64,000 nt of DNA from Paludisphaera soli (lineage in GTDB: Bacteria > Planctomycetota > Planctomycetia > Isosphaerales > Isosphaeraceae). Shown here piece after piece: positions 9,518 through 23,495 of this stretch (within the stretch, counting starts at the first letter, position 1; each line of letters begins with the position of its first letter). A program made the position numbers and the translations under genes. Location: contig NZ_JAALJI010000001.1 of assembly GCF_011064595.1 (NCBI RefSeq), positions 248,001 to 312,000 on the forward strand, read 5' to 3'. A model generated the notes under the pieces. That model saw only the letters and a program-made list of their open reading frames with translations, did not search any database and was not told the origin of the DNA.

Positions 9518-10366
9518 TTGACGGAGCAGCTGATCGGACAACTCGGGTACATCGGGATCGCGCTGACCCTGGTGGCGGGCGGCTTCCTGCCCATCCCGGA
9601 GGAGGCCCCGGTCCTGCTGGCGGCGATCCTGTCGCGCAACGGCAAGATGTCGGGCCCGATCGCGTTCTCGGCCTGCATGCTCGGCGTGCTCCTGGGCGAC
9701 TTCCTGGTCTACATCGTGGGATACCGGTTCGGCGAGCGGGTCCTCAGCCTCCGCCTGACGCGCCGACTGCTGACCAAGCCCCGCGAGGCGCAGATCAAGG
9801 GCTACTTCCACCGCCACGGATTCAAGATCCTGATCCTGGGCCGGTTCGCGGTCGGCTTCCGGACGGCCGCGTACCTGACCGCGGGAATCCTCAAGCTCCC
9901 CCCGCTCAAGCTGCTGCTGACGGACCTCGTCGCCGCCCTGCTCAGCACCAGCCTGATGTTCGGGCTCGGCTATCTTTTCGCCCACCAGATCGAGAAGGGG
10001 CTGCACGAGGCCCAGCAGTGGCTGGCGATCGCCATCGCGGTCGGCGTCGCCGGCCTCCTGATGTACCGCCATTACAAAGGACACCAGCGGGCCGGGCTCC
10101 CCGTCGGTCCCCCCGTGCTGGTGGCCGAGGACGACCTGCCCATCCCCCCCGACGACCTCGAAGTCCAGCCGGACGCCGCCACCCCGGTCCCGACGGCGAC
10201 CGAGCCCGCGCCGCCGCCCTCCCCGACCGTGGCTGCCCCTAGCCCGACCGCGACGAGCGAGGCGGCCCATCCCGGGCCGTCCACCTTCCCGGCCTCGACG
10301 GAGGCCGCGCGATCCCCGCTGGCCGCACCTCGCGAGAGCGAGTCGCCCCCGCTTTCCCGCGCCTGA
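9518..10366 (+). CDS. DedA family membrane protein with proline-rich tail
   Basis: A DedA/SNARE-associated membrane protein of about 282 residues. Hydrophobic segments and the conserved G-R-F-A-V-G-F-R-T-A-A-Y-L-T-A-G stretch (about residue 108-123) identify the family, whose members include lipid flippases that help membrane homeostasis. The N-terminal re-entrant region has the usual P-I-P-E-E in place of P-G-E. The last 80 residues are a low-complexity Pro/Ala/Thr tail not found in standard DedA proteins. TTG 9518 is chosen over ATG 9458 because AGGAG lies 8 bases upstream and family members begin close to T-E-Q-L-I. Confidence 0.85.
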   Translation: MTEQLIGQLGYIGIALTLVAGGFLPIPEEAPVLLAAILSRNGKMSGPIAFSACMLGVLLGDFLVYIVGYRFGERVLSLRLTRRLLTKPREAQIKGYFHRHGFKILILGRFAVGFRTAAYLTAGILKLPPLKLLLTDLVAALLSTSLMFGLGYLFAHQIEKGLHEAQQWLAIAIAVGVAGLLMYRHYKGHQRAGLPVGPPVLVAEDDLPIPPDDLEVQPDAATPVPTATEPAPPPSPTVAAPSPTATSEAAHPGPSTFPASTEAARSPLAAPRESESPPLSRA

Positions 10367-10400
10367 CGCGGGGAGTGGAAGCGAGGCCTCGGCCCTCGGC

Positions 10401-10733
10401 TCACCCGCTGAGACGCCACATGACGCAGACGACCGGGCCCGGCGCGTCGAAGAAGGCCCGATCCATCCAGTTCAGCGGCGCGTAAAGGATCGCCAGCAAT
10501 TGTTGGCGTGTGAGGTCCTCGGAATCGGCGGCCTCCCTGAATGGGACGTAAAGGAAGCCGGGCAGGCCGAACTCGCGGGCCTCCTGCATCCCTCGCCGCG
10601 AGAGGCGGTGGTAGGTACCCGTGTACGCCATCGGCAGGGAGCCGAGGGCCACCCAGACCATCACGGACCGCACGGTGGCTCGCAGACGAATGCTCCGAGG
10701 AGGCGGTCCTGAGGGCGGGGCGTGGTCCTTCAT
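10401..10733 (-). CDS. Small membrane-anchored protein of unknown function
   Basis: A 110-residue protein with one hydrophobic segment at about 20-40 followed by a soluble part containing Y-H-R-L-S-R-R-G-M-Q-E-A-R-E-F-G and P-L-N-W-M-D. The composition and codon use fit a real gene. I do not recognise a family. GAGGA lies about 10 bases before the ATG. It converges on the DedA gene, with about 35 bases between the stops. Confidence 0.6.
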   Translation of the reverse strand: MKDHAPPSGPPPRSIRLRATVRSVMVWVALGSLPMAYTGTYHRLSRRGMQEAREFGLPGFLYVPFREAADSEDLTRQQLLAILYAPLNWMDRAFFDAPGPVVCVMWRLSG

Positions 10734-10860
10734 GAGTCTGCATCCTCGGTCGTCGGATGGCGGGGTGATGTGGGCGAGAGTCCGCCGGTCGCCCAGGACA
10801 GGTTCGGGGCGAGCCGGGGGCCGTGACGCCGAAAGCCGGCCGTACGCGCGTCATCTGACG

Positions 10861-10882
10861 AAAAAGGCCCCCGGCAAGGGCC
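10861..10882 (-). terminator. Rho-independent terminator on the minus strand
   Basis: Read on the minus strand, AGGCCC - 7-base loop region - GGGCCT is followed by a run of T. No protein gene lies directly upstream on that strand, so it may end a small RNA coming from the 10885-11060 region. Confidence 0.6.
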
Positions 10883-11060
10883 TGGAGCCGCATCGATTCG
10901 GCCTCGGAGCCTCTTCGATTCGCTTCGGCGCACCCCAAAAATCCCCCGGATTGCGGGCGTTGGCTGGATGCTTAAAGTCGTGTTGACCGACTTGAGCCTT
11001 CCTGATAGTTTCCCCCTTCGTCTCAGCCCGATGATATCCAACAACGTCGGCGGGACTGCG
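10883..11060 (-). ncRNA. Candidate small RNA ending at the orphan terminator
   Basis: The only support is the good minus-strand terminator and the lack of a convincing gene between it and the PEP-CTERM gene. The 5' end is not defined and I see no match to tmRNA, 6S, SRP or RNase P RNA. A 72-codon ORF overlaps the region but its product does not look like a protein. Confidence 0.25.
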
Positions 11061-11250
11061 GTCTGCCATTGAGTAGAGGGGAGTCGCGGCGGGGATCGCC
11101 GGTTCGATTCCTCCCGACCCGCTTCGACCCGACAGCGGCGCGCGGGTACCGCCCGGAGACGTTCTCCGGTCGGCGAGTTATGGATCGACTCGCACGGGGC
11201 CGTCCGTGTTGCGACGGACGGCCCGGATCAACCCTGGAAGATCGACTCGA

Positions 11251-12042
11251 ATGAACAAGATTTCGCTTGCTCTCGCCCTCGGGGCCGGGCTCCTGCTCAG
11301 CGCGGCCGGCTCGGACGCCAAGGCCGCCCCGATCGTCCAGCAGCTGGACGCCCCCGAGATCTCGGCTTCCGACTTCAACAGCCTGTTCAAGCCCATCGCC
11401 GAGGCCCCGCCGATCACGGCGGAGTACCGGTTCATCAACACGCCCCTGACGGGCGTCGTGCAGTCTCAGGTCCTCGAAGGGACCGGGGCGTACGCCGGCC
11501 TCTACGCCTACGCCTACCAGTTCGGCGTCAAGGACGTGAAGGATGAGAGCGGCGAGCCCAGCTCCGTCAACAGCGCCTCGCTGCAGTTCAACTCCACGCC
11601 GACCCGGGCCGACCTGCTCGGCACCGGCGGCCCCGGCAGCGCCGTCTTCGTCGTGAAGGACGGCACGGTCGGCGGCCTGAGCACGCCCGTCGCCGCCGCC
11701 AACATGGCCGGCATCCAGATCCCCAGCTCGGTGGCCTGGCTCCCCGGCGAGAAGACCGGCGCCCTGACCTTCCAGTACCTGGACGCCAACAAGGCCAGCG
11801 ACCCGCTCGGCGCCGGCGCCACCAGCGGCACGATCGTCGTGCTGACCACCGAGAAGTGGACCAACAAGCTGGTCAGCCTCCAGAACGCCAACCCCCAGAT
11901 CGTCTACCCCTCGGCCTACGCCTCCGAGGGCGGCCCGATCCAGGAGGTCCCGGTCCCCGAGCCGTCGACCGTCCTCGCCTGGGCCGGCATCATCGCCGCC
12001 GCCGGGATCGTCCAGCGCCGCCGCAACCGCCGCGACGCCTGA
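11251..12042 (+). CDS. Exported PEP-CTERM protein
   Basis: The 263-residue product has an N-terminal signal peptide (M-N-K-I-S-L-A-L then a hydrophobic stretch ending near A-K-A-A) and a C-terminal sorting signal: V-P-E-P-S, a hydrophobic helix and an Arg-rich end. In the PEP-CTERM/exosortase system this tail is recognised and processed at the membrane. The central part is rich in Ala, Gly, Ser and Thr with no named domain. The ATG at 11251 is preferred to a GTG at 11206 because it starts a proper signal peptide. No exosortase gene is in the window. A strong terminator follows. Confidence 0.85.
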   Translation: MNKISLALALGAGLLLSAAGSDAKAAPIVQQLDAPEISASDFNSLFKPIAEAPPITAEYRFINTPLTGVVQSQVLEGTGAYAGLYAYAYQFGVKDVKDESGEPSSVNSASLQFNSTPTRADLLGTGGPGSAVFVVKDGTVGGLSTPVAAANMAGIQIPSSVAWLPGEKTGALTFQYLDANKASDPLGAGATSGTIVVLTTEKWTNKLVSLQNANPQIVYPSAYASEGGPIQEVPVPEPSTVLAWAGIIAAAGIVQRRRNRRDA

Positions 12043-12703: not shown

Positions 12704-12844
12704 GCCTGGCCGGGCGAAACGAAGAATGAGTCCTGAAACGGGACCGGCGGTTCCATGAGATCGAGAGACCGGCATCATCCTGATCAACCGGCGGCACTGG
12801 GAGGAGTTCGACGAGAACCTCATGTGTCGACCAGTCCCCATGAC

Positions 12845-14137
12845 ATGAACTTCCCCCCGATTGCCAAGGTAAGACAGAACTTCAACCATCCTGAGGTGGA
12901 CGACCCGGCCGCCGCCGCGGCCCGCGTCGTGATCGGCAGCGGGATCGTCGCTCGGGTCCCGGCGGGTGGGAGGGTCGCGGTCACCGTCGGCAGCCGGGGG
13001 ATCGCCGACCTCGTCCCGATCGTCCGGGCGGTCATCGAGGCGTTGCGGTCGCTGGGCTTCCGGCCGTTCGTCGTCGCGGCCATGGGGAGCCACGGGGGCG
13101 GGACCGCCGAGGGCCAGCGCGGACTGCTGGCGGAACTCGGCGTGACCGAGGCGAGCGTCGGTTGTCCCGTCCGCTGCGAGATGGACACGGTCGTCCTGGG
13201 GACCAACGCGTTCGGCCTGCCGATCCACTTCGACCGCAACGCGTTCGACGCCCATGGGATCGTCGTGCTCAACCGCATCAAGCCCCACACGTCGTTCACG
13301 GGGGACTACGAGAGCGGCCTGTTGAAGATGCTGGCCATCGGCCTGGGCAAGCGTCAGGGGGCGGCGCAGGTCCACAAGCTGGGGCTGCCCGGGCTCGTCA
13401 AGCTGCTGCCCGAGGTCGGGGCCTTCCTCCTGCAAAGGACACCGGTCGCGCTCGGCCTGGCGATTGTCGAGAACGCCGACGACCGCCCCGCGCGGATCGT
13501 CGCGGTCGAGCCGGAGGAGATCCTGGCCGTCGAGCCGACGTTGCTCGCCGAGGCCCGCTCGCTCATGCCCGGCCTCCCGTTCGCCGAGCTGGACGTCCTG
13601 ATCGTCGGCGAGCTGGGCAAGAACTATAGCGGCACCGGCATGGACCCGAACGTGATCGGCCGGCTCCGCGTCGAGACGACGCGCGACCACCCCGCGCCCG
13701 TCATCACCCGGCTGGCGGTGCTCGACGTCTCCGAGGAATCCCGAGGCAACGCACTCGGGGTCGGCTTTGCGGACCTGACCACGGAACGCCTCGTGCGGGC
13801 GATCGACCCCACGCCGATCTGGGTCAACAGCTTCACCAGCAACTTCCTCGCCCGCGCCCGCGTCCCCCTGGCGATGCCGACGGACCGCGAGGTCGTCTCC
13901 GCCTGCCTCGACACCTGCTGGCGGATCGACCCGGCCGAGGCGCGGATGGCCCTGATCCCCAACACCTTGGAGTTGACGACGCTCTGGGTCACCCGACCAC
14001 TCGCCGCTGAGGTCGAAGCCCACCCCAGCCTGGACTTCGAGACCGACTTCCTGCCGATCCCGTTCGACGACCGGGGCGGCCTCGATCAGCGAGCGTTGTT
14101 CCCGGAGAGCCTCCGAGGCCGCCGAGCACCTCGGTGA
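12845..14137 (+). CDS. LarA-like nickel-pincer-dependent isomerase family protein
   Basis: The 430-residue product matches the lactate-racemase-domain family (DUF2088): V-G-S-R-G-I-A-D near 60, the long conserved A-M-G-S-H-G-G-G-T-A-E-G-Q-R near 82, L-N-R-I-K-P-H-T-S-F near 140, and G-K-N-Y-S-G-T-G-M-D near 258. LarA enzymes use a nickel-pincer nucleotide cofactor to racemise or epimerise hydroxy acids; the substrate of this branch is unknown to me. The start is uncertain: ATG 12845 or GTG 12824, neither with a clear ribosome site. No larB, larC or larE is in the window. Confidence 0.75.
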   Translation: MNFPPIAKVRQNFNHPEVDDPAAAAARVVIGSGIVARVPAGGRVAVTVGSRGIADLVPIVRAVIEALRSLGFRPFVVAAMGSHGGGTAEGQRGLLAELGVTEASVGCPVRCEMDTVVLGTNAFGLPIHFDRNAFDAHGIVVLNRIKPHTSFTGDYESGLLKMLAIGLGKRQGAAQVHKLGLPGLVKLLPEVGAFLLQRTPVALGLAIVENADDRPARIVAVEPEEILAVEPTLLAEARSLMPGLPFAELDVLIVGELGKNYSGTGMDPNVIGRLRVETTRDHPAPVITRLAVLDVSEESRGNALGVGFADLTTERLVRAIDPTPIWVNSFTSNFLARARVPLAMPTDREVVSACLDTCWRIDPAEARMALIPNTLELTTLWVTRPLAAEVEAHPSLDFETDFLPIPFDDRGGLDQRALFPESLRGRRAPR

Positions 14138-14430: not shown

Positions 14431-15822
14431 TCAGCCGGTGACCTTCATCGCCTTGGGGTCCCAGCCGATGAGCTTGCTCTCATAAAGGCTGGTGTTGCAC
14501 AGCAGGGCCGGGGCGGCGGCGCGGTAGCCGAAGACGGCGTCCTCGTAGACCGGCTCGCCCTGGCGGACGGAGGTGAAGAACTTGACGAAGTGGTCGAAGC
14601 GGGGGTCGTAGCCCGCCGGCGGCTTGAAGGTCTGGGCGCCGTCGTAGGCCGACTTCTTGCGGTCCTTCTTCGGCTCGGCGGCCAGCTTGGCGGCGATCGC
14701 GTCCTGCTGGGCCTGGGAGAAGGTCTGCACGGAGTTGTAGCCCTTCAGCTCCTGCTCGGGAGTCGGCCAGGTGATGCCGGTCCGCTCCAGCTTGAGAGAG
14801 GCCAGGTCGGTGGAGATGACCCCCTCGTCGCCCACGAACCGGAACAAGGTGGCGTCGCCGCCGCCGTCCTCGAAGTCGCACTGGAGCGAGACGGTGAAGG
14901 CGGGATGGGCCTCCACGGCCGGGTAGTCGAGCAGGCTGAGGATGACGTCGTAGACGTCGCGGCCGTCGTCCCAGTAGCGGAGGCCGCCCATCGCGGCGAC
15001 CTTGTTCGGGCCGATCGAGTCGGTGGCGCGGTGGATGGCGGTCAGCAGGTGGACGAACAGGTCGCCGGCCACGGCCGTGCCGTAGTCCTGGTAATTCCGC
15101 CAGCGGAAGAAGCGGGTGGCGTCGAACGGCCGCTTGGGGGCCTGGCCGAGGAAGCGGTCCCAGTCGACCGTCTCGGGCGAGGCGTCGAGCGGCAGGGTGT
15201 ACTGCCAGGCGCCGAGCGACGAGTTGCGGTTGTAGCGGGCCTCGACCACGTTCAGCTTGCCGATCGCGCCGGCGGCGATCATCTCGTGGAGCTTCTCGAA
15301 GACGACCGAGCTGGCGAACTGGCTGCCGACCTGGAAGACGGCCTTGGTCTCCCGCTGGACCTTGATGACGTCCGGCCCCTCGGCCAGCGTCTGGACCATC
15401 GGCTTCTCGCAGTAGACGGCCTTGCCCGCCTTCATGGCGTCGACCGACATCTTGGCGTGCCAGTGGTCGGGGACGCACAGCAGGACCGCGTCGACGTCTT
15501 TGCGATCGAGGATCTCGCGGTAGTCGACGCAGGTGGCGACGTGGTCGCCGTACTTCTCCTTGACCCGCGTCCGGCGGCCCTCGTAGAGGTCGGCCGCGGC
15601 GACCAGCTCGACGCCGGGGGCCTTCAGGGCGCAGTCGGTGTCGATGAAGCCGATGATCCCCATGCCGATCGTCGCGATCCGCACCTTGTCGTTCGGCCCG
15701 GCCCCGGCGAGGGCCTCGGCCGCCGCCTCGGCCTCGGGGCTTCGGGAAAGGATCGTGACGGCCGAGGCCGCCGTCGCCGTCTTCAGGAACCCCCGGCGCG
15801 TGTTTTCATCGCGAGGTCGCAT
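14431..15822 (-). CDS. Tat-exported Gfo/Idh/MocA family oxidoreductase
   Basis: The 463-residue product starts with a twin-arginine signal (T-R-R-G-F-L-K-T followed by a hydrophobic stretch), so it is folded with cofactor before export. A Rossmann fold follows with I-G-M-G-I-I-G near 52, then D-A-V-L-L-C-V-P-D-H-W-H-A and C-E-K-P-M, the family's conserved E-K-P. The C-terminal domain matches the Gfo/Idh/MocA alpha/beta domain. These enzymes oxidise or reduce sugars and related alcohols with NAD(P). ATG 15822 is preferred since GGAG lies 7 bases before it; the next ATG at 15825 is also possible. It is divergent from the GH15 gene. Confidence 0.88.
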   Translation of the reverse strand: MRPRDENTRRGFLKTATAASAVTILSRSPEAEAAAEALAGAGPNDKVRIATIGMGIIGFIDTDCALKAPGVELVAAADLYEGRRTRVKEKYGDHVATCVDYREILDRKDVDAVLLCVPDHWHAKMSVDAMKAGKAVYCEKPMVQTLAEGPDVIKVQRETKAVFQVGSQFASSVVFEKLHEMIAAGAIGKLNVVEARYNRNSSLGAWQYTLPLDASPETVDWDRFLGQAPKRPFDATRFFRWRNYQDYGTAVAGDLFVHLLTAIHRATDSIGPNKVAAMGGLRYWDDGRDVYDVILSLLDYPAVEAHPAFTVSLQCDFEDGGGDATLFRFVGDEGVISTDLASLKLERTGITWPTPEQELKGYNSVQTFSQAQQDAIAAKLAAEPKKDRKKSAYDGAQTFKPPAGYDPRFDHFVKFFTSVRQGEPVYEDAVFGYRAAAPALLCNTSLYESKLIGWDPKAMKVTG

Positions 15823-16052
15823 CATCAATCTCCAGTTCGTCGATTCTCCGGCGGGGCGTCTCATCAGCGAATCCCGCCGTATCCAGCTTAACGACCCCCG
15901 CGTCCGGAAGCGACTCCCCGGCGGTTCGAGGCCGTCCGCGACCGGGTTCTGCCGCGCCGTCGGCCCGGTTGCGATGGCTCGGCCCGAGATGTGCTCCCAG
16001 GGAGGCCCATTTTGTTCCCGCTCCCTCGCAACGTACCCATCCGGAAATCCCC

Positions 16053-17846
16053 ATGGCCAAGCTGATCGAAGACTACGCGCTCATCGGCGACTGCCGCACC
16101 GCGGCGCTCGTGGCGAAGGACGGCTCGCTCGACTGGCTCTGCCTCCCGCGGTTCGATTCCCCCGCCGCGTTCGCCGCCATCCTGGGGACGCCCGACCACG
16201 GCCGCTGGCTGCTCGCGCCCGTGGCCGAGCCGAAGCGGATCACCCGCTCCTACCGGGGGGACACCCTGATCCTGGAGACGCTGTACGAGACCGAGGACGG
16301 TGAGGCCGTCGTCGTCGACTGCATGTCGATGCTGGACGATGCGGCCGACGTGCTGCGCATGGTCGAGGGCCGTCGCGGCGCGGTCCGATTCCGCACCGAG
16401 TTCCGCCCCCGGTTCGACTACGGCAGCGCGACCCCGTGGGTCCGTTCGGAGGACGGGCGCGGCGTGATCGCCGTCTGCGGCCCGGAGACCCTGCACCTGT
16501 CGGGCCCCGCCCCCGTCGCCATCGAGGACTGGACGGCCCGCGCGGAGTTCGAGGTGCACGAGGGGATGAAGGTCCCCTTCGTCCTGACATGGCACCCGTC
16601 CCACCTGGCGATCAAGGATCCGGTCGATCCCGTCGCGGCGATCGAGGCGACCGCCCGCTGGTGGGAGGAGTGGGCGGGCCGTTGCCAGTACCGCGGCGCG
16701 TATCGCCAGGCCGTCATCCGCTCGCTGATCACGCTCAAGGCCCTGACTTACCAGCCGACCGGCGGGATCGTCGCCGCCCCCACCACGTCGCTCCCCGAGA
16801 CGATCGGCGGGATCCGGAACTGGGACTACCGCTACTGCTGGCTCCGCGACGCGACCTTCACCCTGACCGCCCTGCTCCAGAGCGGCTATCGCGACGAGGC
16901 CGACGCCTGGCGGCAGTGGCTGCTCCGCGCCGTCGCCGGCAAGGGTGAGGAAGTGCACATCATGTACGGCTTGGCCGGCGAGCGTCGGCTGCCCGAGACC
17001 GAACTCCCCTGGCTCCCCGGCTACGAGGATTCCCGGCCCGTCCGCATCGGCAACGGCGCCTACGACCAGTTCCAGCTCGACGTCTACGGCGAGGCGATGG
17101 CCTGTTTGCACCTGGCCCGCCACTACGGCATGTCGGCGGAGGCCGACGACTGGCGGATCGAGCGCGAACTGCTGGCCCGGCTGGAACAGGTCTGGCGCGA
17201 GCCGGACGAGGGCATCTGGGAGGTCCGGGGCGAGAGCCGCCACTTCACCCACTCGAAGCTGATGGCCTGGGTCGGATTCGACCGGGCCGTGAAGGACGTG
17301 GAGCGATTCGGCCTCGCCGGCCACGTCGACCGCTGGCGGGAGCTTCGCGACAAGCTCCACGCCGAGATCTGCGACCGGTCGTTCAACAAGCGCCGCAACG
17401 CCTTCACGCAGTCGTACGACTCGGAAGACCTCGACGCCAGCGTCCTGGTCATGATGGAGGTCGGCTTCCTCCCGCCCGACGACCCGCGCCTGGTGGGGAC
17501 CGTCGCTGCGATCGAGAAGGAGCTGATGCACGGCGGCTTCGTCGACCGCTACCGGACCGAGTCGGGGGTCGACGGCCTGGAGGGGACCGAAGGGGCCTTC
17601 CTCCTTTGCACGTTCTGGCTGGCCGACAACTACGCCCTGATGGGGCGCCTCGACGATGCGAAGCGAATCTTCGAGGGCGTCCTGGCCGTGTGCAACGACG
17701 TCGGCCTGCTCGCCGAGGAGTACGACGTGAAGGCCCGACGCCAGCTCGGGAACTTTCCCCAGGCTTTCTCGCACCTCGGCCTGGTCAACACCGCCTGGCA
17801 TCTCCACCGGGCGGGGCGCGAAGGCGCGTCGCGGCCCCTGGACTGA
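16053..17846 (+). CDS. Glycoside hydrolase family 15 protein (glucoamylase or trehalase type)
   Basis: A 597-residue protein with the two-part GH15 layout: an N-terminal beta domain (I-E-D-Y-A-L-I-G-D-C-R-T-A-A-L, D-W-L-C-L-P-R-F-D-S-P) and an (alpha/alpha)6 barrel with G-G-I-R-N-W-D-Y-R-Y-C-W-L-R-D. The likely general acid is the Glu of D-E-G-I-W-E near residue 390 and the general base the Glu of G-T-E-G-A-F near 515. There is no signal peptide, so it probably acts in the cytoplasm on alpha-glucans, maltose-type or trehalose substrates. The start gives the family's M-A-K-L-I-E-D-Y. Confidence 0.88.
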   Translation: MAKLIEDYALIGDCRTAALVAKDGSLDWLCLPRFDSPAAFAAILGTPDHGRWLLAPVAEPKRITRSYRGDTLILETLYETEDGEAVVVDCMSMLDDAADVLRMVEGRRGAVRFRTEFRPRFDYGSATPWVRSEDGRGVIAVCGPETLHLSGPAPVAIEDWTARAEFEVHEGMKVPFVLTWHPSHLAIKDPVDPVAAIEATARWWEEWAGRCQYRGAYRQAVIRSLITLKALTYQPTGGIVAAPTTSLPETIGGIRNWDYRYCWLRDATFTLTALLQSGYRDEADAWRQWLLRAVAGKGEEVHIMYGLAGERRLPETELPWLPGYEDSRPVRIGNGAYDQFQLDVYGEAMACLHLARHYGMSAEADDWRIERELLARLEQVWREPDEGIWEVRGESRHFTHSKLMAWVGFDRAVKDVERFGLAGHVDRWRELRDKLHAEICDRSFNKRRNAFTQSYDSEDLDASVLVMMEVGFLPPDDPRLVGTVAAIEKELMHGGFVDRYRTESGVDGLEGTEGAFLLCTFWLADNYALMGRLDDAKRIFEGVLAVCNDVGLLAEEYDVKARRQLGNFPQAFSHLGLVNTAWHLHRAGREGASRPLD

Positions 17847-17877
17847 ACCGACCGACTGCTCCGCTGGGAGGACCCCG

Positions 17878-19353
17878 ATGAAACCGTCCGCGATCTTCCT
17901 CGGCTGCCTCCTCGCGGCCCTCACTCTCGTCGTCCCCCGCCTGACGGCACAGGAGGGTCCGCAGGCCGCCGAGGCCGTCGCTCCTCCCGAGGACCTCCGA
18001 TTCGCCTGGCGGCGTTCCGAGCTGAACGTCGGCGGCGTCTTCCCGCACATGGCGATCAAGGCGCCCGGGACCGGGAGCCGGACCGAGACCGGCGTGGGGG
18101 CCCTCATCCCCTGGGCCGACCGGCTATGGGCGGTCGGTTACGTCGCCCACATCGCCGGCTCCGGGCTGGGCCTTTTCGAGATCCGCGAGGACATGGCGTT
18201 CCGGCTGCATCCCGAGTCCGTCACCGGGACCTTCGCGAATCGGATGATCCACTGGGGCACGAACCAGGCGATCCTCGGCCCCCACCTGATCGACGAGCAC
18301 GGGAACGTCCGGACCATCAAGGAGCTGGCCAAGCACCGGCTCACCGCCACGGCCAGGCACCTGACCGACCCGGAGAACAAGGTCTACTTCCTGACGACGG
18401 AGGGCCTCCTCTTCGAGACCGACCTAAACACGCTGCAGTCCCGACAGCTCTTCGACCTCATCAAGGAGCTGGGGATCGACGGCTACAAGCACTTCAAGGG
18501 CGCCCACACGGCCCACGGGCGGCTCGTGGTCGCGAACAACTCGTACGACGAGAAGGAGTTCCTGGGAGACCGCGAGGCCGGCCGGCTCGCCGAGTGGGAC
18601 GGCGAGAAGTGGACGATCCTGGAGAAGAACCCGTTCGTCGAGGTGGCGGGCCGCTACTCTCCCGACGACCCGCTGTACGCGCTCGGGTGGGACAAGCGGT
18701 CGGCGATCCTCCGCGTGCTCGACCGCGGAGGATGGTCGCGGTATCGGCTCCCCAAGTCGAGCCAGACCTTCGACCACCAGTGGTGCACGGAATGGATGCG
18801 CATCCGCGAGGCTTCCACCGAACGCTACCTGATGGACGCGTTCGGCCTCTTCTACGACATGCCCTGGAAGCACTACGGCGGCAAGCTCTGGGGCGTCCGG
18901 CCGATCGCCGCGCACCTGCGGGTGGTCCCCGACTTCGTCCACTGGAACGGGCTGTTCGTGCTGGCGAGCGATCAGACGGACAACGGCGTCGGCCAGCCGC
19001 AGTCCGGGCTCTGGTTCGGCAGCATCGACGACCTCTGGAAGATGGGCAAGCCCACCGGCTGGGGGGGCCCCTGGTGGAACGATCCCGTCGAGGACGGCGC
19101 GGTGTCCGACCCCTACCTGATGACGGGCTTCGACAAGAAGGTCCTCCACCTGTCGCACGACTCGCCGCATCCGGTGACGTACACCGTCGACGTCGACTTC
19201 CTGGGCGACGGCTCGTGGAACACTTACCGGTCGATCACGGTCCCCCCGAAGGGGTACGACTTCCACGTCTTCCCCGACGGCTACTCGGCCCACTGGGTCC
19301 GGGTGACGGTCGACAGGGCCTGCACGACCTCCGTCCACTTCACCTACAACTGA
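17878..19353 (+). CDS. Secreted protein of unknown function, probably beta-rich
   Basis: A 491-residue protein with a signal peptide (M-K-P-S-A-I-F-L then hydrophobic, ending near T-A-Q). The mature part has many short W- and G-containing strands such as A-V-G-Y-V-A-H-I-A and W-D-G-E-K-W-T-I-L, which suggests a propeller, but no repeat is regular enough to count blades. I do not recognise a family. GGAGGA lies 5 bases before ATG. It follows the GH15 gene by 31 bases and could be co-transcribed, and its stop is 2 bases from the stop of the SGNH gene opposite. Confidence 0.7.
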   Translation: MKPSAIFLGCLLAALTLVVPRLTAQEGPQAAEAVAPPEDLRFAWRRSELNVGGVFPHMAIKAPGTGSRTETGVGALIPWADRLWAVGYVAHIAGSGLGLFEIREDMAFRLHPESVTGTFANRMIHWGTNQAILGPHLIDEHGNVRTIKELAKHRLTATARHLTDPENKVYFLTTEGLLFETDLNTLQSRQLFDLIKELGIDGYKHFKGAHTAHGRLVVANNSYDEKEFLGDREAGRLAEWDGEKWTILEKNPFVEVAGRYSPDDPLYALGWDKRSAILRVLDRGGWSRYRLPKSSQTFDHQWCTEWMRIREASTERYLMDAFGLFYDMPWKHYGGKLWGVRPIAAHLRVVPDFVHWNGLFVLASDQTDNGVGQPQSGLWFGSIDDLWKMGKPTGWGGPWWNDPVEDGAVSDPYLMTGFDKKVLHLSHDSPHPVTYTVDVDFLGDGSWNTYRSITVPPKGYDFHVFPDGYSAHWVRVTVDRACTTSVHFTYN

Positions 19354-19355
19354 CC

Positions 19356-20750
19356 TCAGGGCTTCGGGGCGGCCGCCGGATCGTCGAGGATCGCGCGGGC
19401 GACGGCCTCGGCCAGGATCTCAAGGCCCGCCTGGTTGTAGTGGCAGCAGTCGTCGATGTAGAGCGACTCGGGATGGTCGCGGAAGATCGCGGTCAGGTCG
19501 TGGAAGGCCACGCCGCGCTCGCGAAGCCCGCGACCCTCCCGCAGGAGGAGCGGGTAGCCGGCCTGCACGCCCTTCCGGTACGGGTGCTCCGCGTTGAAGG
19601 CCAGGCTCCTCTCGGCGGGGTCCATCGGCTTGGAGTCGGCGACGTACTGGTTCGGCTGGAGGAAGTGGTAGTAGCGGGTCCCAGTCTGGCGGCAGAGGGC
19701 GTCGATGGCCCGGGAGCTGTTCGACCAGATCGAGGCCAGGTGCTCGAACAGCTCGTCGCGGCCGGCGAACTCGCGCGCGGGTCCGGTGGCGACGTACGGC
19801 CCGCCCCGATTTTGCAGCTCCTGGTGGCCCTTGACGATCGAGTACGACGCCCATTCCAGGCGGCGGTCCTGGAGCTTCCAGACGAGGTTGGCGAGGATCG
19901 ACCACTGGAACGGCGGCGAGGAGGCCCACCGGGCCCAGGCGTTCCGCCGCTCCTCCAGTCCGTTCAGCTCGGCCCGCGCCGAGCCGCTGGCCGGGTCGTT
20001 GCCGCCGACGCGCGCGTGCCAGCTTCGGGGAAAGGCCGGGAAGACGTGGTGCCCGGAGTTCTCCAGTTCGTGGAGTGCCACCTCGTTGAAGCCGTCGATG
20101 TTCAGGACGACGTCGAACTCGGCCCCGAGGGCCGTCAGATACGCCAGGGTGGTCAGCTGCTGCGGCTGCTTGTAGCCGCCGAGGGCGGCGTTGACGAACA
20201 CGAACTGCTTGTCGGCGTACTCGGGGGAGCGGCGTAGGGCCTCCTCCAGCCGATGCACGCCGTTGACCCCGAAGTACGAGGCGACCGAGCCGCCGAAGAT
20301 CCCGACGATCAGCTTCCCGGGCCCGCGTTTGTGGATCGGGTCCTTGTCGTCGACGTAGCCGAAGTTCGAGACCGGCATCGTGCGGCCGTCGCTCTCGCGG
20401 ACGATCCCGCTGTCGGGCCGGGGGTCGCGGACGTAGCCGACGTAAGGGTGGACCTGCGAGGAGATCGCCCCGCCGATTCCCGGGGGCCGGTTGGCCCGCT
20501 CCCGACGCTCGTCCTGCAGGGCCGTCCAGGAGAAGGGCTGGCCGGTCGCCAGCCGGAACAGCGGCCAGGCCGCCAGCTCGCACGAGGCCCACGCCAGGCC
20601 CAGCAGGATCGCGGCGAATGCGAACTTCTTGCGGCGCGCCAGGCGACGGGGCCTCGCCGGGCCCGTCGCCGTGTCGGCCGAAACGGGGCCGTCGCGTCGC
20701 GTCCGCGGCTTCGCGCCTTGCCCGATCATCGACGCCTGCGATTCTTCCAT
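19356..20750 (-). CDS. Membrane-anchored SGNH/GDSL-type hydrolase
   Basis: The 464-residue product has a basic cytoplasmic N-terminus, one transmembrane helix at about 42-64 and an extracytoplasmic SGNH domain. The catalytic block I is G-I-F-G-G-S near 150-155 and the C-terminal D-D-C-C-H-Y-N-Q-A-G block supplies the Asp/His pair; L-N-I-D-G-F-N-E between them carries a likely Asn/Gly-region match. SGNH enzymes of this kind cleave or transfer ester groups such as acetyls on polysaccharides. ATG 20750 is preferred because GGAGGAG sits 8 bases upstream; an earlier ATG at 20819 lacks one. Substrate unknown. Confidence 0.75.
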   Translation of the reverse strand: MEESQASMIGQGAKPRTRRDGPVSADTATGPARPRRLARRKKFAFAAILLGLAWASCELAAWPLFRLATGQPFSWTALQDERRERANRPPGIGGAISSQVHPYVGYVRDPRPDSGIVRESDGRTMPVSNFGYVDDKDPIHKRGPGKLIVGIFGGSVASYFGVNGVHRLEEALRRSPEYADKQFVFVNAALGGYKQPQQLTTLAYLTALGAEFDVVLNIDGFNEVALHELENSGHHVFPAFPRSWHARVGGNDPASGSARAELNGLEERRNAWARWASSPPFQWSILANLVWKLQDRRLEWASYSIVKGHQELQNRGGPYVATGPAREFAGRDELFEHLASIWSNSSRAIDALCRQTGTRYYHFLQPNQYVADSKPMDPAERSLAFNAEHPYRKGVQAGYPLLLREGRGLRERGVAFHDLTAIFRDHPESLYIDDCCHYNQAGLEILAEAVARAILDDPAAAPKP

Positions 20751-20915
20751 GGCCACGGCTCCTCCGTCACTCTTCGACAGACCGGGCCGCACCATAGCCG
20801 TTAACCTCTTTTCAGGCAACTTGGCTTGGCGGTCGAGGACTCGCCTCCTGGACTCCGCCTCGCCGGGGTGTTATACAGGCGTTGAACATCCGCCGACGCC
20901 GCTGGAGGACCCATG

Positions 20916-22259
20916 ATGGATGCGAACGGACCCGAGCCCGATCCCCCCCTCGCCTGGACTCGACGCGCCGCGATGGGCGCGATGGCCGTCGGCGCCGTCG
21001 GCGTCGCCCGGGCGCGGGCCGAGGCGGCCCAGCCGGCGGCCGAGGCAGTCCCGAAGCCCCGGCCGAGGATCGCGGCGGTCGCCACCTGCTACTACAAGAC
21101 CTCGCACGGCCAGGGGATCATCGACCGCTTCATGGACGGCTACGGCTGGGGCGGGAAGCATCACCGGCCGGCGATCGACGTCGTCTCGCTCTACGTCGAC
21201 CAGCGGCCCAAGGGGGACCTCACCGACGAACGGGTCGCTCGCCATCCGGGCCTGGAGGTCTACCCGACGATCGCCGAGGCGCTCACCCGGGGCGGCCCGA
21301 CGCTCGACGTCGACGGCGTGGTCCTGATCGGCGAGCACGGCGACTACCTCCGCGATGATCGCGGCCGGATGCACTACCCCCGCTACGAGTTCTTCAAGCA
21401 GGTCGCCGACGTCTTCCGGAAGTCGGGCCGGTCGGTCCCGGTCTTCAACGACAAGCACCTGTCCTGGAACTGGGAGTGGGCGAAGGAGATGGTCGCGACC
21501 TCGCGCGAGCTGAACTTCCCGTTCCTGGCCGGCTCGTCCCTGCCGGTCACCTGGCGGATCCCCGAGTACGAGACGCCGACCGACGCCCCGATCGAGGAGG
21601 CCGTCTGCGTCGGGTACGGCGGGGTGGACAGCTACGACTTCCACGGCCTGGAATCGCTTCAGTGCTTCGTCGAGCGCCGCCGCGGCGGCGAGACCGGCGT
21701 CAGGGCCGTCGAGGTCCTGCGCGGGGCCGACGTCTGGAAGGCGCTCGACCCGGCCCAGGGGGGCTCGGCGCGGACGAAGGCCCTCTTCGACGCCTGCCTC
21801 TGCCGGAGCTTCCGGCTGACCTCGCCGATGGAGGGCTACGGCAACGCCTTCCCGACGCTCGAACAGGCGTCGAAGATCGCGGCCGATCCCCTGCTCTATC
21901 GCCTGCACTACAACGACGGCCTGGTGGGCAGCCTGTTCATGATGTCGGGCCTGGTGGCCGACTTCACGGTGGCCCTGAAGCTGGCGGCCGACCCGGCGAT
22001 CCACTCGACGCAGCTCTACCTCTGCGGGATCTCGCCGAATCAGACCCTGCCGAACTTCTTCAGCCCGCTGGCGAACCACATCGAGGCCATGTTCCTGACC
22101 GGCAAGGCGCCCTATCCCGTCGAGCGGACGCTGCTGACCTCGGGCGTCCTCTGCACGGCGGTCGACCTGCTGGCCGAGAAGCGTCGCCTGGCCGAGACCC
22201 CGGACCTGGCGGCGATCACCTATCAGGCGCCCGTCGAATCGCAGTACATGAGGAGCTGA
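20916..22259 (+). CDS. Tat-exported protein of an uncharacterised family, paralogue 1
   Basis: A 447-residue protein with a twin-arginine signal (T-R-R-A-A-M-G then Ala/Val-rich). The mature part contains D-V-V-S-L-Y-V-D-Q, V-Y-P-T-I-A-E-A-L, V-L-I-G-E-H-G, Y-P-R-Y-E-F-F-K-Q, V-F-N-D-K-H-L-S and F-L-A-G-S-S-L-P-V-T-W-R, all shared with the next gene. The start of the mature part and the strand-loop pattern V-D-G-V-V-L-I-G-E-H-G suggest a Rossmann-like fold. I do not know its activity. ATG 20916 fits the ribosome site (GGAGGA, 6 bases) better than ATG 20913. It lies 10 bases before its paralogue. Confidence 0.75.
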   Translation: MDANGPEPDPPLAWTRRAAMGAMAVGAVGVARARAEAAQPAAEAVPKPRPRIAAVATCYYKTSHGQGIIDRFMDGYGWGGKHHRPAIDVVSLYVDQRPKGDLTDERVARHPGLEVYPTIAEALTRGGPTLDVDGVVLIGEHGDYLRDDRGRMHYPRYEFFKQVADVFRKSGRSVPVFNDKHLSWNWEWAKEMVATSRELNFPFLAGSSLPVTWRIPEYETPTDAPIEEAVCVGYGGVDSYDFHGLESLQCFVERRRGGETGVRAVEVLRGADVWKALDPAQGGSARTKALFDACLCRSFRLTSPMEGYGNAFPTLEQASKIAADPLLYRLHYNDGLVGSLFMMSGLVADFTVALKLAADPAIHSTQLYLCGISPNQTLPNFFSPLANHIEAMFLTGKAPYPVERTLLTSGVLCTAVDLLAEKRRLAETPDLAAITYQAPVESQYMRS

Positions 22260-22268
22260 GCCCGAGCC

Positions 22269-23495
22269 ATGCGAAGCCGCAAGCCGATCGACGACGCTCC
22301 GCAATCGCCCCCCGCCGGACGCAAGCGGCTGGCGATCGTCACGACCGTCTGGAAATACCTGTCGCACGCCCAGCACATGGGCGACCGCTTCCTCGTCGGC
22401 TACCCCATGGACGGGGCCTGGAAGAAGCCGGCGATCGACGTCGTCTCGCTCTACGTCGACCAGAAGCCCGAGGACGACCAGAGCGCCGAGCGGGCCGCGA
22501 CCTTCGGGTTCAAGGTCTACCCGACCATCGCCGAGGCCCTCCGCCAGGGGGGCGAGAAGCTGGCCGTCGACGCCGTTCTGATCATCGGCGAGCACGGCGA
22601 ATACCCGCGCAACGAGAAGGGGCAGGTCCTCTACCCCCGCTACGAGTTCTTCAAGCAGGCGGCCGACGTCTTCGAGGCCGACGGCCGCGCGGTGCCCGTC
22701 TTCAACGACAAGCACCTGTCGTACAGCTTCACCAAGGCGAAGGCCATGGTCGACGCCTCGAAGCGGCTGAACTTCCCGTTCCTGGCCGGCTCGTCGCTGC
22801 CGGTGACCTGGCGGCTCCCCTCGGTCGATCTGCCCCTCGGCGCGGTCGTCGAGGACGCCGTCATGGTCGGGGTCGGCGGTTCCGACCCGATGGACTACCA
22901 CGCCCTGGAGGCCATGCAGAGCGTGCTGGAGCGTCGTCGCGGCGGCGAGACGGGCGTCCGTCGCGTGCAGATGGTCGTGGGCGACGCCGTCTGGAAGGCG
23001 GCCGACGACGGCCGCTGGTCGCGCGAGCTGCTGGGCGCGGCGCTGTCCCGGTCGGACTCGCTCCAGGGCCTGTCGGTCCAGGACGGCCGCCCCCAGGCCC
23101 TCGCCGAAGGGGACGAGATCGCGCGCATCGCCCAGGATCCCGCCGCGTACCTCATCGAGTACGTCGACGGCACGCGCGCCACGCTCCTGATGCTCAACGG
23201 CGTGCTGGCCGACTACAACCTGGCCGTGAAGGTCCAGGGCCGGCCCGATCCGCTCTCCATGCAGTTCCTGCTGCCCCCCACCCCCAACGTCGCCTACTCG
23301 GCCCAGCTGATGGACAAGGTCGTCCGCATGATCGAGACGGGCCGGGCCGCGTACCCGGTCGAGCGGACGATGCTCGTCTGCGGTATGCTGGAGAGCTGCC
23401 TCGATTCCCGGATGAACGGCCAGACGCCGCTCGAAACGCCCCACCTGGCCGTCCGGTACGAATCGCCCCGCGAATCCCTGTTCGCGCGGACCTGA
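22269..23495 (+). CDS. Uncharacterised family protein, paralogue 2, without signal peptide
   Basis: A 408-residue protein that repeats all the conserved blocks of the gene before it (S-L-Y-V-D-Q, Y-P-T-I-A-E-A-L, I-G-E-H-G-E-Y, Y-P-R-Y-E-F-F-K-Q, F-N-D-K-H-L-S, F-L-A-G-S-S-L-P-V-T-W-R) over nearly its whole length. It lacks the Tat signal and begins with a short basic, proline-containing stretch, so it probably stays in the cytoplasm. The gap to paralogue 1 is 9 bases, so the two are co-transcribed and came from a tandem duplication. Function unknown. Confidence 0.75.
   Translation: MRSRKPIDDAPQSPPAGRKRLAIVTTVWKYLSHAQHMGDRFLVGYPMDGAWKKPAIDVVSLYVDQKPEDDQSAERAATFGFKVYPTIAEALRQGGEKLAVDAVLIIGEHGEYPRNEKGQVLYPRYEFFKQAADVFEADGRAVPVFNDKHLSYSFTKAKAMVDASKRLNFPFLAGSSLPVTWRLPSVDLPLGAVVEDAVMVGVGGSDPMDYHALEAMQSVLERRRGGETGVRRVQMVVGDAVWKAADDGRWSRELLGAALSRSDSLQGLSVQDGRPQALAEGDEIARIAQDPAAYLIEYVDGTRATLLMLNGVLADYNLAVKVQGRPDPLSMQFLLPPTPNVAYSAQLMDKVVRMIETGRAAYPVERTMLVCGMLESCLDSRMNGQTPLETPHLAVRYESPRESLFART

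Follow-up and report, generated by a model that had tools for sequence, protein, structure and literature searches.

Gfo/Idh/MocA oxidoreductases, among them GenD2, myo-inositol dehydrogenase and glucose-fructose oxidoreductase (GFOR), are enzymes for which PMC5969746 gives a K-D-H catalytic set and an EKP motif as family features and reports structures that are homodimers or homotetramers. Hitchhiker export, in which a protein crosses the membrane by the twin-arginine translocation (Tat) system on the signal of a partner, is established for hydrogenase-2 HybO/HybC and for PaoABC, according to PMC10924467 and PMC4273604. The present report concerns two adjacent genes, A and B, in a 64,000-nucleotide (nt) stretch of the Paludisphaera soli genome (hereafter the window, meaning the whole stretch of DNA analysed), which recall both systems. 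The reading I favour, at about even chances, is that A and B are subunits of one heteromeric enzyme with a Gfo/Idh/MocA fold, exported on the Tat signal of A.

A and B resemble the Gfo/Idh/MocA oxidoreductases in their two-domain fold (285-287 aligned residues), in an EKP-type lysine, in a similarly placed invariant histidine and in a full-length profile similarity of moderate strength. They differ from them by the absence of a PF01408 match and of GxGxxG, by DKH in place of EKP, by an insertion after strand 4, and by being constantly paired paralogues, presumably subunits, in contrast to the homo-oligomers mentioned above. With the hitchhiker complexes they share two co-encoded partners and a single Tat signal; unlike the components of HybO/HybC and PaoABC, A and B are paralogues of each other, and the bearer of the signal has changed several times (four on a quick tree).

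A paired family with the Gfo/Idh/MocA fold

The pair lies on the + strand, with 9 nt between the two frames.

20913..22259, + strand: gene A (P0001), 448 residues, Gfo/Idh/MocA fold without NAD fingerprint; open frame
22269..23495, + strand: gene B (P0002), 408 residues, same fold as A, no signal peptide; open frame
20958..20966, + strand: TRR of the twin-arginine signal of A; from the sequence, classified as Tat by signal reading

An earlier note on this DNA had described tandem paralogues with shared blocks, the first alone carrying a Tat signal, and this description holds. Both frames are real; the proteins are 47% identical over 409 columns (BLASTP, E 1e-121), and all the blocks quoted (SLYVDQ, IGEHG, YPRYEFFKQ and FLAGSSLPVTWR) are common to both. 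A begins with MMDANGPEPDPPLAWTRRAAMGAMAVGAVGVARARAEA, a Tat-type signal, and B has none. The same genome contains a third copy of the family (G000:C46:131739-133025, 43% identity to A). A scan for sigma-70 promoters and terminators found none.

Structure prediction, which the earlier note had proposed as a check, gave a confident two-domain Gfo/Idh/MocA fold for both proteins. AlphaFold models were built from the sequences of the window and of its relatives; the predicted local distance difference test and predicted template modelling scores were 92.7 and 0.91 for B, 90.4 and 0.85 for A. In Foldseek and VIA-align comparisons, both models consist of an N-terminal Rossmann domain and a C-terminal open beta-sheet domain. 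The best VIA-align match was GenD2 in both cases: 6nor_C for B (Z 26.1, root-mean-square deviation 3.6, 285 aligned residues, 16% identity) and 6nor for A (Z 24.8, deviation 3.6, 287 aligned, 15% identity). The titles of the 50 VIA-align matches listed per model were those of Gfo/Idh/MocA-type enzymes or unnamed oxidoreductases, as were the Foldseek titles, and GFOR (1h6d, 1rye) was among the structural neighbours found by Foldseek or VIA-align. Profile comparison by hhalign, in which each E-value refers to one single comparison, matched the family profile to 29 Gfo proteins from the window genome (probability 91, E 1.1e-6, 283 columns; with A first, probability 87, E 4e-6, 280 columns) and with an 11-protein Gfo set (probability 72, E 3.3e-5, 108 columns).

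By sequence, the family stands outside the described ones. Neither A nor B matched any Pfam or NCBIfam family even at E up to 1, PF01408 and the C-terminal Gfo models of Pfam included, and among the Pfam matches of 67 family members scanned at the same threshold there was no Gfo family, the NAD-binding model included. The window genome has 47 PF01408 matches above cut-off, and A, B and the third copy are not among them. A PDB sequence search gave chance-level matches only (best E 0.54 for A and 0.36 for B), and a search of the PDB with a profile of the 67 members gave none. The clear match to a described enzyme family that the earlier note had set up as the counter-argument to its proposal thus exists at the level of fold and not at that of sequence; the family search it had suggested likewise returned no Pfam or NCBIfam family, although it did bring out strongly conserved residues, and its description of the function as poorly described is sound. 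The models present the A/B family as a known fold in an undescribed family, and I hold the family to be derived from the Gfo/Idh/MocA fold. Among the open-licence papers listed by literature searches, none dealt with a Gfo/Idh/MocA branch lacking the NAD motif or with the A/B family in Poribacteria.

The dinucleotide fingerprint is lost and other residues are near-invariant

Conservation was counted in an alignment of 218 rows of the family (79 A-type, 78 B-type and 61 others), in which at least one sequence is present twice (L083 and L145). Residue numbers are those of B, and the glycine positions come from a gap-free overlay on L115, a Gfo protein of the same genome (RVGIVGLGFMGRMH), which places its three glycines at positions 25, 27 and 30 of B and its histidine at H33. 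The stretches concerned in the window pair are as follows.

21066..21107, + strand: first strand and loop of A, RIAAVATCYYKTSH, where the glycine-rich dinucleotide loop would be; model (strand 52-57, helix from 65) and column counts
21333..21341, + strand: conserved E-H-G of A, after the fourth strand; column counts
21450..21458, + strand: D-K-H of A, counterpart of the EKP motif; hhalign and column counts
21627..21653, + strand: D..D.H..E of A, invariant His with acids, where a C-domain helix begins; model and column counts, the likeness to the dehydrogenase Asp/His being suggested by position
22326..22367, + strand: RLAIVTTVWKYLSH of B, replacing the glycine-rich loop; model and column counts
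22590..22598, + strand: conserved E-H-G of B; column counts
22707..22715, + strand: D-K-H of B; hhalign and column counts
22884..22910, + strand: D..D.H..E of B; model and column counts

At the three GxGxxG positions, 212 of the 218 rows have no glycine at all and the other 6 have one; the third position is Tyr in 88 rows and Lys in 80. By comparison, the 29 Gfo proteins of the window genome have three glycines there in 20 cases, two in 7 and one in 2. Both models show RIA/RLA.. as the first strand, and their first helix opens at the His of S-H. A glycine-rich string does occur further on: G.G..[GA] is found within the first 120 residues of 66 of the 218 rows, not always as the GYGW..HH of the A hairpin. 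The idea that the GYGWxG string is a displaced NAD loop was set aside, since in both models the hairpin follows the first helix and B does not have the string (it has GYPxxG there).

On the substrate side, several candidate catalytic residues are conserved. The EKP motif itself is absent, hhalign placing DKH at its position, and K148, the EKP lysine, is kept in 216 of 218 rows. H211 is invariant (218/218), with E214 in 216 rows (D in 2) and D/E206 in 217. Acids precede the invariant histidine by five and two residues, compared with a spacing of four for D191/H195 of the inositol dehydrogenase in PMC5969746, in a stretch that hhalign leaves unaligned; from their position at the start of a C-domain helix, I infer that H211 and these acids are the counterparts of the dehydrogenase Asp and His.

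Another group of near-invariant sites, new in this family, comprises H33, Q65, E108 and H109 (216 rows each), D147 (217) and H149 (212). These sites are located at the ends of strands 1, 2, 4 and 5, the dinucleotide place of a Rossmann fold, and topology suggests that they meet in space. A further new motif, Y..N...Q..YPR, lies in a segment that follows strand 4 and is missing from the Gfo rows in the hhalign alignments. The column counts thus bear out the strong conservation between copies that the earlier note had pointed to. Its suggestion of an enzyme with a cofactor fares differently in its two halves: the proteins look enzymatic, but since the GxGxxG glycines are lost the cofactor cannot be assumed, despite the fold of an NAD(P) (nicotinamide adenine dinucleotide, phosphorylated or not) enzyme.

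An old gene pair with a wide distribution

A search of contigs with A yielded 378 stretches, of which 366 were confirmed and the best 80 kept. These 80 loci, sampled by similarity to A, come from Acidobacteriota (42), Poribacteria (25), Latescibacterota (7), Gemmatimonadota (5) and one planctomycete, and in all of them a B-type frame lies downstream of A on the same strand. The family occurs in 78 of 84 genomes of Poribacteria, 34 of 392 of Planctomycetota and 17 of 396 of Acidobacteriota; in one acidobacterial order the count is 126 of 257 (E 1e-80). Among the matches listed for Poribacteria (150 rows), 71 B copies were identified (at least 62% identity). For 70 of them an A gene of the same orientation lies no more than 6 kb upstream, and for 56 of these no more than 200 nt; the exception starts some 1.1 kb into its contig. 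A tree of 99 rows places the 19 A-labelled and the 19 B-labelled rows each on their own side of a branch (support 100), with ungrouped rows falling inside too. Separate A and B clades and a constant shared order indicate that A-B is an old two-gene cassette, with relatives in Planctomycetota that have one copy, and not the product of a recent duplication in tandem.

Two planctomycete pairs have a divergent second copy (L175, 1277-2461, - strand; L174, 2830-3966, - strand). That of L175 is 27% and 33% identical to A and B and sits on a long branch; in these two loci the second subunit is perhaps in decay or taking on another role. The family was not matched in phage records, and plasmid records gave one match only, at 32% identity, on an Arthrobacter plasmid. 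This member (L188; AP014720.1, Arthrobacter sp. Hiyo8 plasmid, typed conjugative; 10001-11272) is annotated as a conserved hypothetical protein, and its frame also spans upstream sequence.

One Tat signal per pair, on either gene

The carrier of the signal was determined by a strict Tat reading, requiring a start codon, RR and a hydrophobic stretch. Among the 42 acidobacterial pairs of the best 80 loci, the signal is on A only in 30 and on B only in 12; no pair has both or neither. A further 92 acidobacterial loci, among them a part of the copies listed for the order and four from other searches, comprised 7 stretches without a pair and 85 pairs, with the signal on A only in 45, on B only in 30, on both in 2 and on neither in 0, 8 pairs being unreadable on one side. 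Forty-seven of these had not yet been counted (A only 17, B only 20, both 2, and 8 unread and dropped). Combined, the 81 readable acidobacterial pairs divide into 47 with a signal on A only, 32 on B only, 2 on both and none on neither (Fisher p 1.5e-20, a value that ignores relatedness). A single signal on one of two co-encoded partners is therefore found in the window pair and in 79 of the 81, the other 2 having both. In a quick tree built from the concatenated mature proteins, the signal switches four times between A and B (three in the first set), and well-supported branches force three changes of the B-only label.

Outside Acidobacteriota the picture varies. The strict reading gave 24 pairs with neither signal and one B call in Poribacteria (L023), 6 with neither and one A call in Latescibacterota (L073), and 4 with neither and one A call in Gemmatimonadota (L029). 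The three calls were judged false, the called stretch running from an upstream start and another start lying at the mature end, as in their relatives, and the pairs of these three phyla are accordingly judged to have no accepted signal on either gene. A looser reading additionally called L046 on both genes, L026 on B and L061 on A. Among planctomycete pairs readable on both sides, the window, its closest relative L001 and L165 have the signal on A only, L164 on both, and L163 and L168 on neither; one side is unread in L169, L174 and L175. Of 57 planctomycete rows, some of them pair members, 36 have a Tat signal, 14 do not and 7 are unreadable, so that many planctomycete members look exported.

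Genomic neighbours

The earlier note had named SGNH, BNR_4-like, Gfo/Idh/MocA and GH15 genes around the pair. The last three are confirmed.

14434-15864, - strand: Gfo/Idh/MocA protein; PF01408, E 1.2e-17
15969-17846, + strand: GH15 protein with trehalase-like N-terminal domain; PF00723, E 6.8e-91, and PF19291
23554-24987, + strand: BNR_4 protein, 58 nt after B on the same strand; PF15892, E 1e-18

The SGNH label of 19356-20819 (- strand) is unconfirmed (PF16822, E 0.035, below cut-off). The BNR_4 gene is possibly co-transcribed with the pair. The GH15 gene overlaps a long opposite-strand frame (15888-18107) without Pfam match, and upstream of the pair a gene at 12755-14137 (+ strand) weakly matches the N-terminal domain of lactate racemase (PF09861, E 8.9e-6, 25.5 bits for a cut-off of 23.3).

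In L001, an SGNH-like gene, A, B, BNR_4 and a permease follow in the same order as in the window. The carbohydrate neighbours that the note saw are real, but beyond this relative other genes adjoin the pair in the loci examined and neighbours vary by lineage. A gene-neighbourhood study, which the note had called for across planctomycetes and which here covered several phyla, found the A-B pairing constant in the best loci and no other constant operon partner in the loci examined. Neighbours are largely lineage-bound: metallo-beta-lactamase-fold, glyoxalase-fold, PhyH and sulfatase genes in Poribacteria, M19 or M20 peptidases in Acidobacteriota, an aldo-keto reductase in Latescibacterota. In L012, L049 and other Poribacteria loci, a block of sulfatase, metallo-beta-lactamase-fold, glyoxalase-fold and PhyH dioxygenase genes is repeated upstream of A. 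DUF1501 was considered as a partner, being present in 7 of 65 scanned planctomycete neighbours (of 74 listed); strands are mixed and the planctomycete group is rich in DUF1501 genes, and it was given little weight.

Across clades and phyla, the neighbour that recurs most clearly is a gene of the creatininase family (PF02633-type), the family of 3-dehydro-scyllo-inosose hydrolase IolN, MftE and creatininase. It is linked in 12 of 120 loci, on the same strand in 11, and is directly adjacent in 5 of 40 planctomycete loci. Linkage was checked in 13 genomes, partly chosen for holding a linked copy: in G344 and G274 the sole creatininase match is the adjacent one; in G291, G356, G307, G395 and G397 the linked copy is among 2, 2, 3, 2 and 11 matches, respectively; and in 6 of the 13, the window genome included, creatininases are present and none is linked. 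In contrast to IolN, MftE and creatininase themselves, the eight linked proteins tested score below the cut-off of every NCBIfam equivalog matched (for IolN, 53 to 82 bits against 245). IolN opens a diketo-inositol beside Gfo-type dehydrogenases, and a cyclitol or keto-sugar route is a lead here, not a result. Among the open-licence papers listed on IolN and creatininase, none was of use.

Discussion

The favoured reading can be set out as follows. A and B would fold and join in the cytoplasm, and in Paludisphaera soli the complex would then cross the membrane by way of Tat, A providing the sole signal and B being the hitchhiker. Each subunit would keep the substrate-side acid-base residues, namely the lysine of DKH, the invariant histidine and the acids at the start of the C-domain helix, and the NAD(P) site would have been rebuilt by loss of the three loop glycines, by a beta-hairpin after the first helix and by insertion of EHG.Y..N...Q..YPR after strand 4. 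The chemistry would most likely be proton transfer, of isomerase, epimerase or lyase type, with no freely exchanging NAD(P), and the substrate may be polyhydroxylated or keto-sugar/cyclitol-like. Computation directly supports the fold, the missing glycines, the conservation, the pairing and the one-signal pattern; the heteromer, its export as a unit, the histidine's role, the reaction and the substrate are deduced from these. A broader proposal, which I put forward only tentatively, is that the pair represents a class of heteromeric, NAD(P)-free and often extracytoplasmic enzymes in which the NAD(P) site has become a new site of catalysis or metal binding and the Tat signal migrates between subunits; H33, E108-H109 and D147-K148-H149 of B, with their A counterparts, would stem from the ends of the strands at which the dinucleotide is expected.

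Several observations weigh against the favoured reading. Two-signal pairs exist (L230, L243, L164), so one signal is no strict rule, and 8 of the 85 added pairs were dropped with one side unread, among them L204, whose B has no signal and whose A is unread. Many of the planctomycete relatives stand alone, with no second gene beside them, and pairing is therefore no requirement of the fold. The H211 stretch being left unaligned by hhalign, the match with the dehydrogenase histidine depends on its position, and the GYGW..HH hairpin of A, at which the local hhalign alignment begins, resembles GxGxxG. Finally, the acid at the end of strand 2 (D/E64) is kept in 209 of 218 rows and is aligned by hhalign with the Gfo acid; since an acidic residue at this place binds the adenosine ribose in NAD, S-adenosylmethionine and flavin adenine dinucleotide enzymes (PMC4777477), its conservation argues for a nucleotide ligand.

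It is possible, if rather doubtful, that A and B are still NAD(P)-dependent oxidoreductases, in which this acid and a new loop (T.[YW]...SH, where the first helix opens) keep a tight hold on the dinucleotide. NAD(P) enzymes, including GFOR, are their closest matches in structure, the lysine of the catalytic set is kept, and the GFOR of Zymomonas is Tat-exported with its cofactor inside; however, nearly all rows are devoid of fingerprint glycines, often with a bulky replacement, none of the 67 scanned members matches the NAD-binding Pfam model at E 1, and a conserved insertion and the hairpin adjoin the pocket. The loss of the fingerprint, which is typical of pseudoenzymes, would also suit proteins that arose from the same fold and serve in binding or sensing without catalysis. 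I consider this very improbable, because K, H, D/E and E are near-invariant in both subunits and in the single-copy relatives, and most of the neighbours tested are enzymes of metabolism, the creatininase-like amidohydrolases for example. The signal on A alone in the window had led the earlier note to speak of copies with different location, and A and B would then be two separate enzymes, A periplasmic and B cytoplasmic. This is improbable too: in other lineages the signal is on B with none on A, Poribacteria have no accepted signal on either gene, and the genes remain adjacent in a constant order. With two compartments, both jobs would have to change place at each swap of the signal, whereas for one complex a single signal on either subunit is enough. 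A signal that is on A or B, rarely on both and in no readable acidobacterial pair on neither, and whose carrier swaps, is therefore better accounted for by co-export of one complex, and the claim of different locations is not supported.

The favoured reading, one co-exported enzyme, bears on an undescribed family that is spread over Poribacteria, an acidobacterial order and Planctomycetota, groups that are poorly cultured. In this family, a Rossmann dehydrogenase fold may have given up its dinucleotide site and yet kept its catalytic residues. Swapping of the Tat signal between paralogous subunits would be a natural experiment on hitchhiker export, and one that makes a prediction testable with sequences alone.

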